This document shows positions 9,325 to 28,033 of a stretch of DNA of 56,804 bases, piece after piece. The notes beneath the pieces were generated by a model. That model had not been told where the DNA came from, ran no database searches, and saw only the letters and a list, made by a program, of their open reading frames with translations. A program made the translations under genes and the position numbers. Within the stretch, counting starts at the first letter, position 1. Each line of letters starts with the position of its first letter. The DNA is from Clostridia bacterium (GTDB lineage Bacteria > Bacillota > Clostridia > Christensenellales > Borkfalkiaceae), in the NCBI GenBank assembly GCA_029066845.1, contig JAIEFR010000017.1:1-56804 (forward strand), read 5' to 3'.

Positions 9325-12300
9325 TTAACCTAGCGATATTCTGTCCGACACACTGCGGATAAACATACCGCTGCTTGTGCCTTCGTCGATACAGGAGCTG
9401 ATAAACGACGTGTATTTTTCGGTCACTCTCAGAGGTCTTATCTGCGAGATTACCGCGTTGATAAGCTCGTCCCTGTAGAGGCTGACGTTCTCCAAAAGTA
9501 TAGCCTTGACGAGCGCGATTACGTCGTACGGCGAGAAGTCCGTATCCATCTGGCGGACGGATGTGCCCTCCTCCACGCGGTACCTTTCGAACGCAACCGC
9601 TTTGTCAGTCTTGTAGTAGTGCGTTGCACCCAGAAGGGAAGCTGACTTGAACGAGCACGCGGGAATGAGCGAAACCACTTTGCCTTCCAGTCTGCTGCCG
9701 TATTTCTGTATGCCGTACTGCGCCAGCACGCGCTTTACGAGGAACTGTTCGGAAATGGGCTCCTCCGCAGTTACCACCGACTTTATCGTCTTGATGAGTT
9801 CTGCGTCCATACTGCCGCTCAAAAGGGCGTTGGAGTCCGCCGCCGTAACCGCGGTTTTGGCAAGCTTATATGCGCGCTTGTAGTTGCCCGAAATGTTGTT
9901 TTCCTTGGAGGTAAGTCTGTCCAGATAGTCCTTTATCTTCTTGATTTCCCTCTTGGGATTGTTGAAGAAGTTAACAGAGTACAGACGGATGACGTTCCAG
10001 TTGTTGCGCTTCAAGGTGTTGACCTGCATTACGTACTTATCCTTGATGGAGAAGTTCTTGTTGCCGTCGCACAGCACCGCCAGAATGAAGTTGCGCTTGT
10101 TCTTGGGGTCGAGTACGCCGACGTCGATTTTGAAGTCCGAAACGCCGACGTCGCAGCGGCAGTCGTAGCCGTAGGAGGAAAGCTCCTTGGCAACGTACTT
10201 GCCTATACCAGTCCTGTTTATGATGACCTCGTCGCTGGGCGCGGCTATGCCCGTTCTGCCTTTTTCGGAAAATTCCAGGAAGGCTTTAAGACCGGCAACG
10301 CCCCTCGAAGTGGTGCGTGAAAGGTCTATCATAGAGTAGCGCATAGAGGAGAATACTACCATCTCCTCCCTTGCCCTGGACACCGCAACGTTGAGGCGGC
10401 GCCAGCCGCCGAACTGATTTAAAGGACCGAAGTTCAGAGATATTTTACCCAGCGTATCGGGACCGTAGCACACCGAGAAAAGGATAACGTCTCTTTCGTC
10501 GCCCTGCACGTTTTCGAGGTTCTTGACGAACAGCGGCTCCTCCCTATCATAGGCGTAATCTTCCAGCCCCTTATCCGCAATAGCCTTGTTGAGCATCTTT
10601 TCGATATATACCTGCTGGGGAGTCGAGAACGTGACAACGCCGATAGATGAGCGGCGCGCCGAGGGGTCGGAAAGGCGTTTGATAACTTCCTTGACGAGCG
10701 CTTCCGCCTCCTCCTTGTTGCACTTGGTGCCGCCGCGCTGATATACGCCGTTTTCCACGTAGCGGAATTTGACTTTGCTGTCGAGCGCGTCGGGCGACGG
10801 GAAGGTGCACAGCTTGGAAGAATAGTACATTATGTTGGAGAAAGCGATAAGGCTTTCGTGCTTGGAACGGTAGTGCCACGTAAGATGCTTTTCGGGTATG
10901 CCGAGGGCAAGGCAGTCGTCCAGCACGCTTTCGAGGTCGTCCGTTTCGGGGTTGTCCTCGTCCGCGCCCACCGACATAAAGAAGGACGTGGGCGGCATCT
11001 GTTTGGGGTCGCCGACGATTATTGCGCTCTTTGCCCTTGCAAGCGAGGGCACCGCCTCGCACGTGGGAAGCTGGGAGGCCTCGTCGAAGATTACTATATC
11101 GAACAGGTCGAGCGACGCGGGCAGATACTGCGAGACCGTGAACGGGCTCATCAGCATACAGGGCGCGACAACCTTTAACAGCTCTGGTATTTCACCCAGC
11201 AACGTGCGCAGGTTGAGTCCGCGGGGATTGCCCTTTGTCTGGCGGCGAAAAGACATAAGCTCGAGCGCAAGCGCGCCCTCCGTTTCCTCTCCCGGCAGAC
11301 GGGATATGAGGTCGTGGCGGATTTTGTCGCGCGTGAGCTTTGTGAACTCTTCCAGAATCTGCGAAAAGTTGCTTGCCGTTTCGTCCAGCACGGTTGCCGA
11401 AAAACCCGAAAGTCTGGGGTCGGCGGGAATGTTCTTCTGGACGAAATTTCTGTATACGTTTTTGCGGAACGCCGAAAGAATTTTTTCGCCGCTTATCTGT
11501 CCGCTTTCCAGCGCGTCGGTTATGAAAGTCAGTCCGTTGTCGTTCAGCTTTTTAGCCGTTCCTTTGTACATAGCCCACGCCGGAAGCATATCGATGTTGT
11601 CGATAAGCGCGGTGCACTTTGCGTAGTAATAGTCGTATATATCCTCGTCCGAAATGAGCTGTTTATTGGCTTCAACCGTTTCGGCGAAGTAATCGCAGCT
11701 CTGCGTAAAAGACTTTGCCGCGCCGAGCAAACCCGCGAAGAGCGGCTTCAAATGACCGTCCGAAGCCTTTGCGCAGACCGAGTTGAACGCATCGGCATTG
11801 TAGTCCATAAACACGCCGCCGCACAGCTCGTGGAAGTTATACAGCGGAGCCAGGAAGTCGTCCCTCTTCTTGTCGTTAATGCCGCCCGTAATTCCCACGA
11901 AGTTGGAAGCAAGCTTGGTATAGGAAAGTATCTTGCGCTTATCCTGCTCGATTTCCAGCGCAGCCTTTACCCATTCGAGTTCCTCGCCCTCCTTCAACGG
12001 AGTCTTGGCAAGATGGTTTATGCGCTTGACGATAACCGTGAGCGGACGGGACGCGAGATAGTCGCCCTTGCAGTTTTCTATCTCCTCGTCGATGACGTTG
12101 GCAAACTTGGAAACGTCGGCAAGCGCCTTGAATTTGTTGAGCCAGTTTTTTACGCCCGCGTCGTAGCGAAGGTTGGCGTTGTAGAAAGTGTAGAACTCCC
12201 TTTCGTCGCACGTGAAGAAAACGTTCAGATCGCCGCCCGAAAGCTTCTTGACAATCTGCACAAGGTTGTTGAGCTTTTTGGAAGTGAAAGTACTTATCTT

Positions 12301-25758: not shown

Positions 25759-26412
25759 ATGAAAAAATTATTTGCGAGTTTATTGTTGTGTCTGCCTATC
25801 GTACTGTCCCTTTCCGCCTGCCAAAAAAAGCTTGATTATTTCGAATACGTTTCGGAATACCGCAGGAGCGTGTACTTTTACGAGGACGACGTTGTAACCT
25901 TGAAAATCTATTCCGTGGATAAGGAAACCAACAACGCGCTGGACGGATATAAGGGCAACGTGAGCAACGTTACCGAAGTGTATTTCGAGAGTGAAAACAG
26001 CGTGAACGAGGTTGAAGTCGAGCTTTTGGGACAGGGCGGCGAGATGAGCTATCTTGCCGTGACGCGCAACTTTTATTTGAGCTTTTCGGGCGTCGAGCCG
26101 AGCGGCGCAAGCATACCCGTGAACCTGAAAATAGACGGTGAAGAAAAGAATTTTGACGTTATGAACGTTGCCGAGGAAGGCACGATTGACGGAAAAACCG
26201 CATTGAACTGCGTTGTGGAATACGATAAGGAAAGCTTTGACAACCTGACCGATGGCAGGAACTTTTCGGGAGAGATTTCCGTACGCCTTTTGTACGACGA
26301 AGGATGCTTTTATTACGTGGGCGTATGCAACCGCGAAAAGCAGGTGCACGCCTATCTTGTGGACGGTGTGGACGGAAGAATTATAGCCGAGCGCGAAAGC
26401 GAAGCCGAATAA
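25759..26412 (+). CDS. hypothetical lipoprotein
   Basis: A 217-residue protein with a lipoprotein signal (MKKLFASLLLCLPIVLSLSAC, lipobox LSAC, in two parts: KKLFASLLLCLPIVL and SLSAC). The mature part is rich in acidic residues and beta-type segments, and ends ERESEAE. No family recognised. No Shine-Dalgarno sequence precedes the ATG; the upstream bases are AT-rich with TATAAC-like -10 candidates but no convincing -35. It is divergent from a membrane protein gene and convergent with hemW across a repeat-rich intergenic region. Confidence 0.65.
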   Translation: MKKLFASLLLCLPIVLSLSACQKKLDYFEYVSEYRRSVYFYEDDVVTLKIYSVDKETNNALDGYKGNVSNVTEVYFESENSVNEVEVELLGQGGEMSYLAVTRNFYLSFSGVEPSGASIPVNLKIDGEEKNFDVMNVAEEGTIDGKTALNCVVEYDKESFDNLTDGRNFSGEISVRLLYDEGCFYYVGVCNREKQVHAYLVDGVDGRIIAERESEAE

Positions 26413-26455
26413 CCGCATAACGCCCGTTTATGCATTTTTATATGCATTTTGGAAT

Positions 26456-26604
26456 TGTTGATAACTTTTAGGTTATATTTGACCTTTCACCGCTGTTAAA
26501 GCGCGAAAAATGTCGGATTTGTGTCAAATTGTTGATAACTTTTACCAACTTATGCTGTTTAGTAATTTCAACAGCATACCTTGTTGATAACTTTTTGTGC
26601 ATAA
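26456..26604 (-). promoter_or_regulatory. DnaA-box-like cluster in a convergent intergenic region
   Basis: On the minus strand three copies of TTATCAACA (plus 26456-26464, 26530-26538, 26582-26590) are followed by one TTATGCACA (plus 26596-26604). The last matches the DnaA-box consensus TTATNCACA exactly; the other three differ at one position. All four are in the same orientation, spaced 74, 52 and 14 bp. The first two copies share 18 bp (AATTGTTGATAACTTTTA) and the third shares 15. A 9-bp perfect hairpin (26551-26578) sits between copies two and three, and a 12-bp-spaced direct repeat TATGCATTTT lies just left of the cluster (26429-26450). Candidate DnaA titration or regulatory cluster. Confidence 0.5.
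26551..26578. repeat. inverted repeat within the DnaA-box-like cluster
   Basis: TATGCTGTT / AACAGCATA, a perfect 9-bp stem with a 10-nt AT-rich loop and no T-run, so probably not a terminator. Confidence 0.6.
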
Positions 26605-26608
26605 AATA

Positions 26609-26625
26609 GGGGTTTTTAACACCCC
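26609..26625 (-). terminator. weak hairpin overlapping the hemW stop
   Basis: GGGGT / ACCCC with a 7-nt loop, followed on the minus strand by TATTTTATG. The stop codon of hemW lies in the loop. It is short and only a plausible terminator. Confidence 0.4.
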
Positions 26626-27728
26626 AGAAAGTCGCAGATTATAGAATTCTGCACGTATAAATACTCGTCTTTGACGCGCAGTCTGCCGTTCTCTCCGGTC
26701 AGATATTGCGCGTTCTTTTTTAATGCGGAAGCATAAACTTCCTTGAAATCGCACTTGAAATCCGCATTGAATTTTGCCGTATCCAGCCCCTCGGCGGTGC
26801 GCAGGGCAAGCATAACCGTTTCGTCCATTGCCCCCCTTTCATCGATTTGAGTGCTGTCAACCACGGGGAAGCGGTTGGACATTATGCACTTGAAATATTC
26901 GTCGAGGTCGAACGTGTTGGTAAAGCGCACGTTCTTTATGCAGGAGGAAGCCGAAACGCCCACGCCGATATACTCGCCGCGCCGCCAGTAGTTTAAATTG
27001 TGCCTGCTCTCCTTTCCCTTCTTGCAGAAGTTGGATACCTCGTACCTTTCAAACCCGAGCTCTTTAAGCTTGTTTACGCCGAAGGCATACATTTCGGCAA
27101 CCTCGTCGCCATCGGGAAGCTCGCCGTTGAGATAATCGGTGTATATGGGCGTACCGTCCTCGGGCGTGAGCGCGTACATAGAGATATGGCTTGCGCCGCT
27201 GCCTGCGGCTACTTCGATAGTCTTTTCAATATCCGCGAGCGTCTGCCCCTTTAAGCCTATCATAACGTCAACGCTGAAATTTTCACCCTTCAAAAGCTTT
27301 GCGCACGCAAGAAACTGGTTGAGATTATGGCATCTGCCAACGTCCTCCAGCTGGGCGTCCACCGCGCTCTGCAACCCTACAGAAAAGCGGTTTATTCCGC
27401 ATTTTTTATACAGCGCAATCTTGCCCGCACTAACCGTACCGGGGTTCATTTCAATGGTTATTTCGGCACCGTCTTTAAGCTTGAAATATTTCTTTGCCGC
27501 AGCAACCAGCATCGCAATATACTTTTCGTCCACTACCGACGGAGTGCCGCCGCCTATATACAGCGTATCGAAAACGTAATCTTTAAGCTCCTCGCCGCGC
27601 ATAGCCATTTCGTGATAGAGGCACGCCATATAGCTTTCCGCAAAACCTATCTTGTCGGGGAAAGAAGTAAAGTCGCAATAGCGACACTTTGATTTGCAAA
27701 AGGGAATATGTACGTAAATACCACTCAT
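26616..27728 (-). CDS. hemW: HemW-type radical SAM heme chaperone
   Basis: A 370-residue radical SAM protein of the HemW family (formerly called oxygen-independent coproporphyrinogen oxidase-like). The 4Fe-4S motif CKSKCRYC lies at residues 11-18 right after IYVHIPF, GGGTPS follows near residue 60, and the C-terminal HemW-type domain is present with DGTPIYTDY-like and NFCKKGKESRHNLNYW segments. HemW binds heme and delivers it to membrane proteins. The start at 27728 overlaps the stop of the MGMT-like gene (ATGA) and follows GGGTGG; a GTG three codons upstream is less likely. True coproporphyrinogen dehydrogenase HemN has extra N-terminal residues that are absent here. Confidence 0.9.
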   Translation of the reverse strand: MSGIYVHIPFCKSKCRYCDFTSFPDKIGFAESYMACLYHEMAMRGEELKDYVFDTLYIGGGTPSVVDEKYIAMLVAAAKKYFKLKDGAEITIEMNPGTVSAGKIALYKKCGINRFSVGLQSAVDAQLEDVGRCHNLNQFLACAKLLKGENFSVDVMIGLKGQTLADIEKTIEVAAGSGASHISMYALTPEDGTPIYTDYLNGELPDGDEVAEMYAFGVNKLKELGFERYEVSNFCKKGKESRHNLNYWRRGEYIGVGVSASSCIKNVRFTNTFDLDEYFKCIMSNRFPVVDSTQIDERGAMDETVMLALRTAEGLDTAKFNADFKCDFKEVYASALKKNAQYLTGENGRLRVKDEYLYVQNSIICDFLGC

Positions 27729-28033
27729 ATCGACCACCCGTAAATTTTTAAATCGACCTTATAGTCGTCGGAAACGGCAACGCCGTCGTTTTCCAGAAGT
27801 TGTTTTTGTATGTCTCTGCCGCCGAACGCAAAGCCGTCGGTCAGAGAGCCGTCCCTAAACAGCACTCTGTGGCAGGGAATTTCGCCGAACGCGGGGTTGG
27901 AATGAAGCGCCCAGCCAACCTGCCTGGAACAGCGCGGCGCACCCATTGCGCGAGCAACCGCGCCGTAGGTCGTCACCCTGCCTTTGGGTATTTGCTTTAC
28001 CACTTCGTAAACGCGCTGATTGAAATTACTCAT
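27725..28033 (-). CDS. MGMT-family DNA alkyltransferase domain protein
   Basis: A 102-residue stand-alone DNA-binding domain of the O6-alkylguanine alkyltransferase family. The family motifs [20 protein letters not shown] and [11 protein letters not shown] are followed by IPCHRV with the acceptor Cys54 present. Alkyltransferase-like (ATL) proteins of this size usually have Trp in place of this Cys, so an active suicide methyltransferase is possible despite the missing N-terminal domain. The start at 28033 overlaps the lepA stop by 8 nt, and the stop overlaps hemW by 4 nt, so all three genes are probably translationally coupled. Confidence 0.85.

Follow-up and report, generated by a model that had tools for sequence, protein, structure and literature searches.

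The DnaA-Box Array and Its Genomic Context

The analyzed window, a stretch of 56,804 nucleotides from a genome of the genus Candidatus Coproplasma (Clostridia), contains a DnaA-box array located between two convergent genes. The left neighbor is a plus-strand ORF of 217 aa (25759..26412) that has no Pfam or NCBIfam match, and the right neighbor is the minus-strand gene hemW (26616..27737), identified by its match to TIGR00539. The intergenic region includes four boxes within 149 bp, all on the minus strand and in a single orientation: B1 (26456..26464), B2 (26530..26538, 74 bp from B1), and B3 (26582..26590, 52 bp from B2) have the sequence TTATCAACA, and B4 (26596..26604, 14 bp from B3) has the sequence TTATGCACA. 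The first-pass annotation of this DNA had described these three plus one boxes, the convergent flanks, and the 18 bp common to the first two copies of TTATCAACA, and we confirmed all of these; the ORF ends at 26412 on the plus strand and the hemW stop is at 26616 on the minus strand, and the third copy agrees with the 18 bp at 83%. The TTATCAACA sequence occurs five times in the window, where 0.21 copies are expected, and this number was reached in none of 100 shuffles; TTATNCACA is not enriched (two copies in the window vs. 1.09 expected).

The limits of 26429..26604 that had been assigned to the site enclose all four boxes; however, the conserved element extends further to the right and occupies about 220 bp (26444..26662), as delineated by the match to the R1 sequence model (E-value 1.3e-32, this copy being one of the 27 training copies). 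The model match covers the final 47 bp of hemW, and a degenerate counterpart of a fifth box, B5, recognized from alignments as AATTCTGCA on the plus strand (26645..26653), is situated within the 3′ end of this gene. The B1-B2 spacer (26465..26529) carries phased A-tracts and has a predicted bend of 57 degrees in the window copy. Immediately to the left of B1, at 26429-26450, there is a direct repeat of TATGCATTTT with two copies 12 bp apart. The previously noted hairpin between B2 and B3 (26551..26578) is present, with 9-bp arms TATGCTGTT/AACAGCATA at 26551-26559 and 26570-26578 and a DNA-fold z-score of -3.46; however, arms of at least 8 bp occur in just 3 of 58 arrays of the genus vs. 1.15 expected from shuffles, thus we rejected the hairpin as a part of the conserved element. 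A search of Rfam at eight loci yielded no match at the arrays and a single tRNA in one locus.

The possibility that the repeated sequence is scattered over the genome, raised in the first-pass annotation, was not borne out: the 13-mer AAAGTTATCAACA has five copies in the 1.56-Mb genome, three of them at the array, and is thus not a widely scattered repeat. The two remaining copies are single ones, at L004 1501-1513 (C12:72965) and L005 931-943 (C25:931); the copy on C12 is apparently intergenic and has 17 bp in common with the array boxes. Scanning 543.7 kb of the 1,561-kb genome for box clusters (at least three boxes per 250 bp) revealed only the array and the oriC candidate described below (C8:161486-161556).

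Conservation in the Genus and Family

The element was found throughout the genus. The 13-mer AAAGTTATCAACA recurs in 26 of 61 sampled genomes, often in twos or threes at fixed distances, and the aligned loci share a common plan with B1, B2, B3, and B4 in the same orientation and B5 inverted. A gapped B4-B3-B2 pattern has exactly one match in each of 27 out of 93 genus genomes and none in the reversed control. Searched over 84,980 species, the same pattern retrieved 50 stretches, 26 of which were assigned to genus genomes, including Candidatus Coproplasma avicola; the remaining 24, which are matches to the pattern alone, include Bacillus and Moraxella. The sequence-only model has one match each at E ≤ 1e-16 in 67 of the 93 genus genomes (the 27 training genomes included) and none at this level in the other 26; at E ≤ 0.01 the number rises to 89 genomes, with weak matches that include oriC, leaving four genomes without a match. 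At E ≤ 1e-6, the model matches 111 of the 251 genomes of the family, in 9 out of 18 genera. The matches outside the genus are weaker (the best one at 2.7e-16), and chiefly B1, B2, and their spacer are recognizable there; neither ftsH nor yyaC was seen among the nearby ORFs of eight inspected extra-genus matches. The sequences used in these computations come largely from MAGs, and relatedness inflates all the counts.

The neighboring genes vary while the plan of the array stays the same; they include hemW, identified via NCBIfam, as well as ORFs that by reading are sbcC-, dnaJ-, and opp-like. By a crude ORF calling, the flanks of 63 classified genus arrays are convergent in 40 cases, codirectional in 20, and divergent in 3.

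Helical Phasing and Predicted Curvature

The spacing of the boxes, for which a comparison with relatives had been suggested in the first-pass annotation, is indeed kept. Among 66 genus arrays (a set from which one genome, G039, was excluded because its match begins near a contig end), the B2-B3 distance is 52 or 53 bp in 57, of which 56 additionally have a B3-B4 distance of 14 bp, and an inverted B5 lies 48-49 bp beyond B4 in 43. The B1-B2 distance, considered for the 74 out of 87 arrays that have exact boxes (54 from the genus and 20 others, with 13 omitted), takes a few discrete values: 62 bp in 2 arrays, 72-74 bp in 14, 83-85 bp in 51, and 94-95 bp in 7, and none elsewhere. The distance is thus mostly 84 bp, and 74 bp in the window copy, both near a whole number of helical turns; some of the 72-74 bp values are due to an additional box located 11 bp ahead of B2. 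The resultant of the B1-B2 phasing at 10.5 bp is 0.93 with a phase near zero, although neither these counts nor those of the periodicity given below are independent, since the arrays are related by descent.

The B1-B2 spacer shows an AA/TT periodicity of 10-10.25 bp, with a power at 10 bp of 1.68 vs. 0.32 in dinucleotide shuffles, 0.46-0.49 in AT-matched windows available for 70 of the 74 loci, and at most 0.44 at 10-10.5 bp in the B2-B3 spacer. A milder signal at 10-10.5 bp is found elsewhere, with values of 0.82-1.0 past B4 and 0.59-0.69 in A/T-rich windows taken from the oriC loci. According to a simple AA-wedge model, the modeled bend of the spacer is 72 degrees vs. 31 degrees in shuffles, and 62 of 74 spacers exceed the 95th percentile of shuffled versions of the same spacer.

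The spacers are also enriched in the TGTCG motif, which occurs in 32 of 58 genus B1-B2 spacers vs. 2.2 expected, and 33 of its 35 copies are located 18-19, 28-30, 38-40, or 49-50 bp before B2. Other 5-mers, e.g., CGAAA, are phased as well, thus TGTCG may just belong to the 10-bp pattern. In the window the motif is found at 26511-26515; in relatives it often reads TGTCGAAA, and the motif resembles a Spo0A box. A tblastn search with a C-terminal fragment of Spo0A had a sole match in the DNA examined (L292 742-945, 66% identity), which belongs to another genus of the family.

Box Sequences Follow the DnaA Recognition Helix

At the same box positions, the relatives often carry TTATCCACA instead of the sequences present in the window. 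The choice between these variants follows a single residue in the recognition helix of DnaA. A box with CCACA is present in the array in 38 of 38 genomes with an Asp-type DnaA and in 0 of 22 with an Asn-type DnaA; these 60 genomes are those of the 67 array genomes for which DnaA was tabulated, the others being G039 and six genomes in which no motif was found (G001, G010, G019, G040, G048, and G060). A smaller set of 29 chosen genomes follows the same rule (16/16 and 13/13). Among box-like 9-mers, CCACA accounts for 149 of 192 in the Asp-type arrays and 0 of 105 in the Asn-type arrays. The Asp-type helix starts with G-x-R-D-H-T-T, x being Asn in G056 and Gly in the other 37 genomes, and the Asn-type helix starts with G-[N/D]-R-N-H-T-T. 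The DnaA protein of the window genome (L007 12800-14149) has G-D-R-N-H-T-T in place of the usual G-G-R-D-H-T-T and is thus of the Asn type. The variable residue aligns with an Asp of the B. subtilis (8btg) and E. coli (1j1v) proteins and falls inside the DnaA stretch 432-435, which is described in PMC5043019 as making base contacts. The Asn form is uncommon: of 391 genomes in the class, 3 matched its pattern, the window genome among them, a figure that counts matches to the Asn pattern.

DnaA very probably reads the array boxes, because their spelling follows the recognition-helix residue in 60 of 60 genomes, although these are not 60 independent tests because the Asp/Asn switch is one event on the tree: in the tree of 29 chosen DnaA proteins, computed with most of domain IV left out, the Asn group lies beyond a single branch with a support of 100/97. 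The boxes of the oriC candidate change together with those of the array. In 12 chosen genomes, TTATCCACA is present in both the array and the yyaC/oriC locus in 6 of 6 cases and absent in both in 6 of 6 (2x2 p-value of 0.002, with phylogeny ignored), and the oriC candidate of the window genome contains TTATCAACA twice, in agreement with the oriC spelling anticipated in the first-pass annotation. An exception is the Asn-type genome G054, which carries TTTTCCACA twice in the yyaC locus. As judged from these sequences, DnaA changed once, and several boxes at the two loci then changed in parallel. Coevolution of DnaA and its boxes has a precedent described in PMC4285127; our literature search found no paper joining D433N, DnaA, and the DnaA box, and none on Coproplasma and DnaA.

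Probable Location of oriC

The oriC candidate is the ftsH-yyaC intergenic region beside parA and parB (L047 11340-11556, corresponding to C8:161340-161556 of the window genome). Boxes are present in this region in the window genome and in G042, together with a sequence that we take to resemble parS. On contig C11 of G042, the cumulative skew is lowest near 138 kb, in the ftsH-yyaC region. The skew of C8 of the window genome is mostly negative, except for the final 1.1 kb and two 6-kb windows (at 42 and 150 kb), which are positive; this is weak evidence. Second, partial arrays were observed near parB in the relatives G001, G057, and G027 (L054 9990-10074, L055 about 9947-10021, and L057 9885-10155), some 6-10 kb from the oriC candidate.

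The array is located elsewhere. Its contig in the window genome, C9, shows no lasting skew change at the array (26.5 kb), the skew being near zero for about 20 kb around it. The skew is positive over nearly all of the 140 kb surrounding the array in G083, and in G053, with the array at 56 kb, the skew is positive in the stretches sampled between 20 and 571 kb and negative at 612 kb and beyond; in G001 the skew of contig C2 is too flat to tell. Thus, in G083 and G053 the array lies inside a chromosome arm, within long single-sign stretches. We also considered a fixed polarity of the array relative to fork direction; the window genome, G053, and G083 agree with it, but G041 and perhaps G001 disagree, thus this idea was dropped.

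The dnaA gene is found on C19, flanked by recF-like and mnmG genes (by Pfam). It was rejected as the site of oriC, as there is no box nearby (one TTATTCACA is 12 kb off) and C19 shows no lasting skew change. The region upstream of dnaA (L007 12658-12799) has no DnaA box of the searched patterns, thus classical DnaA autoregulation at dnaA looks absent.

Proposed Role of the Array and Alternative Explanations

The computed conservation of the element, its geometry, its curvature signal, its position off oriC, and its covariation with DnaA describe a distal locus with a single strong copy per genome. We propose, with a probability of about 0.6, that DnaA binds this locus and forms a loop over the curved A-tract spacer that controls the supply of DnaA or ATP-DnaA to oriC; binding, looping, and an effect on initiation in vivo are what we infer from these features. 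In the proposed mechanism, DnaA would occupy B1 and B2, both on the same helix face, and the two bound molecules would meet across the intrinsically curved A-tract loop. The B3-B4 pair, plus the inverted B5 where present, would extend the DnaA complex, which would then set the amount of DnaA, or of active ATP-DnaA, that reaches oriC, like the IHF-bent datA and DARS sites in E. coli. We lean toward a negative, datA-like role. The phasing, the curved-looking spacer, and the single strong match per genome together suggest an architectural complex. The quantized B1-B2 spacing fits the whole-turn tolerance described for oriC in PMC4285127, where whole-turn changes between selected boxes were tolerated and part-turn changes were not, and PMC10380432 and PMC4585315 postulate DnaA-DnaA contact across an IHF-dependent loop, with relevance of spacing, as the basis of datA function. 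More tentatively, and with the odds somewhat against it, the locus, with its varying gene context and single strong copy per genome, may be a dedicated Bacillota counterpart of datA/DARS in which an intrinsically curved loop takes the place of IHF in keeping DnaA protomers in register to alter the nucleotide state of DnaA, its boxes having been rewritten together with those of oriC upon the Asp to Asn change.

The first-pass annotation had suggested a datA/DBC-like titration of DnaA by a cluster away from oriC. That the sequences are DnaA boxes forming a cluster outside oriC is now strongly supported by the covariation of their spelling with both the recognition helix and TTATCCACA at oriC, and the skew in relatives argues against an origin; the support for a DBC that simply titrates DnaA is weaker. 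Such a site would be a cluster of high-affinity boxes that sequesters DnaA, as the B. subtilis DBCs do, and would need no special structure. This would account for an extra-oriC box cluster in a member of Bacillota, and early initiation after removal of six B. subtilis DBCs is described in PMC5295017 and PMC13220808, although a significant role of these clusters is doubted in PMC5295017 itself. However, the near-whole-turn spacing and the curved-looking spacer speak against a titration sink, and the single strong match per genome contrasts with the six clusters of B. subtilis (other clusters having been sought in about one-third of the window genome). In addition, the terminus of G053, as judged from the skew change, is some 515-556 kb away from the array, which is located within one arm. 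We consider a plain sink unlikely, while giving it appreciable weight, and favor a locus that regulates either the availability of DnaA or its nucleotide state, because contact across a bend is the postulated basis of datA and the whole-turn tolerance fits the quantized spacing.

An improbable but not negligible explanation is a chromosome-organizing or alternative (emergency) start site that serves segregation, sporulation, or restart by loading DnaA, perhaps along with a second factor that binds TGTCG, e.g., Spo0A. The oriC-like array, the enrichment of TGTCG in genus spacers at steps from B2, and the position of yyaC beside oriC are consistent with this; however, the skew does not change at the arrays of G083 and G053, TGTCG may only reflect the 10-bp pattern in which CGAAA is phased too, and the sole tblastn match to Spo0A in the DNA examined is from another genus. 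A role in transcription control of the adjoining genes, or as a terminator-related repeat, is very improbable: the array is mostly intergenic, and in G038 B1 adjoins the start of an ORF that by reading is NUDIX-like, but the geometry stays constant while the neighbors vary and most contexts are convergent. That the array is itself the chromosomal oriC has almost no probability left. Its size of about 200 bp, its several DnaA boxes, and its A/T-rich DNA would suit an origin, and with no box around dnaA oriC could be elsewhere, but the skew minimum of G042 falls on the ftsH-yyaC region with its boxes and parAB, the arrays of G083 and G053 lie in long one-sign skew, and C9 has no lasting change, its skew being near zero. 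The array site is not oriC.

Comparison with Known DnaA-Binding Loci

According to a 2026 review (PMC13220808), datA and DARS are absent from B. subtilis, and the existence of regulators that balance ATP- and ADP-DnaA there is treated as an open question; our literature search found no "datA-like" wording for Firmicutes DnaA boxes or DARS. In E. coli, datA promotes the hydrolysis of DnaA-ATP (DDAH), and its deletion causes over-initiation. Like the array, datA is an extra-oriC locus with several DnaA boxes; the spacing of the datA boxes matters, and a DnaA-DnaA contact in a bent loop is postulated for it (PMC10380432, PMC4585315). However, datA requires IHF, whereas the array spacer is predicted to be curved by itself, and the array belongs to a different phylum. 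The DARS sites promote the release of ADP from DnaA. DARS1 and DARS2 of E. coli, which control the nucleotide state of DnaA, are likewise compact loci away from oriC with a defined set of DnaA boxes, as described in PMC10380432 and PMC5295017, but DARS2 employs IHF and Fis, and IHF is restricted to some phyla (PMC10380432).

The DBCs of B. subtilis resemble the array in being clusters outside oriC in a member of Bacillota (PMC5295017, PMC13220808). They appear to differ in number, with six clusters there and a single strong phased element per genome here, which in G053 and G083 is located within an arm; the search for further clusters covered about one-third of the window genome, and G001, G057, and G027 carry the second, partial arrays near parB. 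The original work on the B. subtilis clusters, by Okumura in 2012, reportedly places them near oriC. Bacterial oriC arrays, e.g., that of E. coli, share with the element an ordered set of DnaA boxes, and in the text of PMC4285127 whole-turn changes between selected boxes are tolerated; in contrast, the array is located away from the skew minimum, and the oriC candidate of the genus is at ftsH-yyaC. The DnaA helix, oriC boxes, and array that changed together provide a natural case of a shift in initiator specificity with its targets following, and a phased, curved DnaA locus found across a clostridial genus and partly in its family would be a testable candidate for a datA/DARS-type site in Bacillota.
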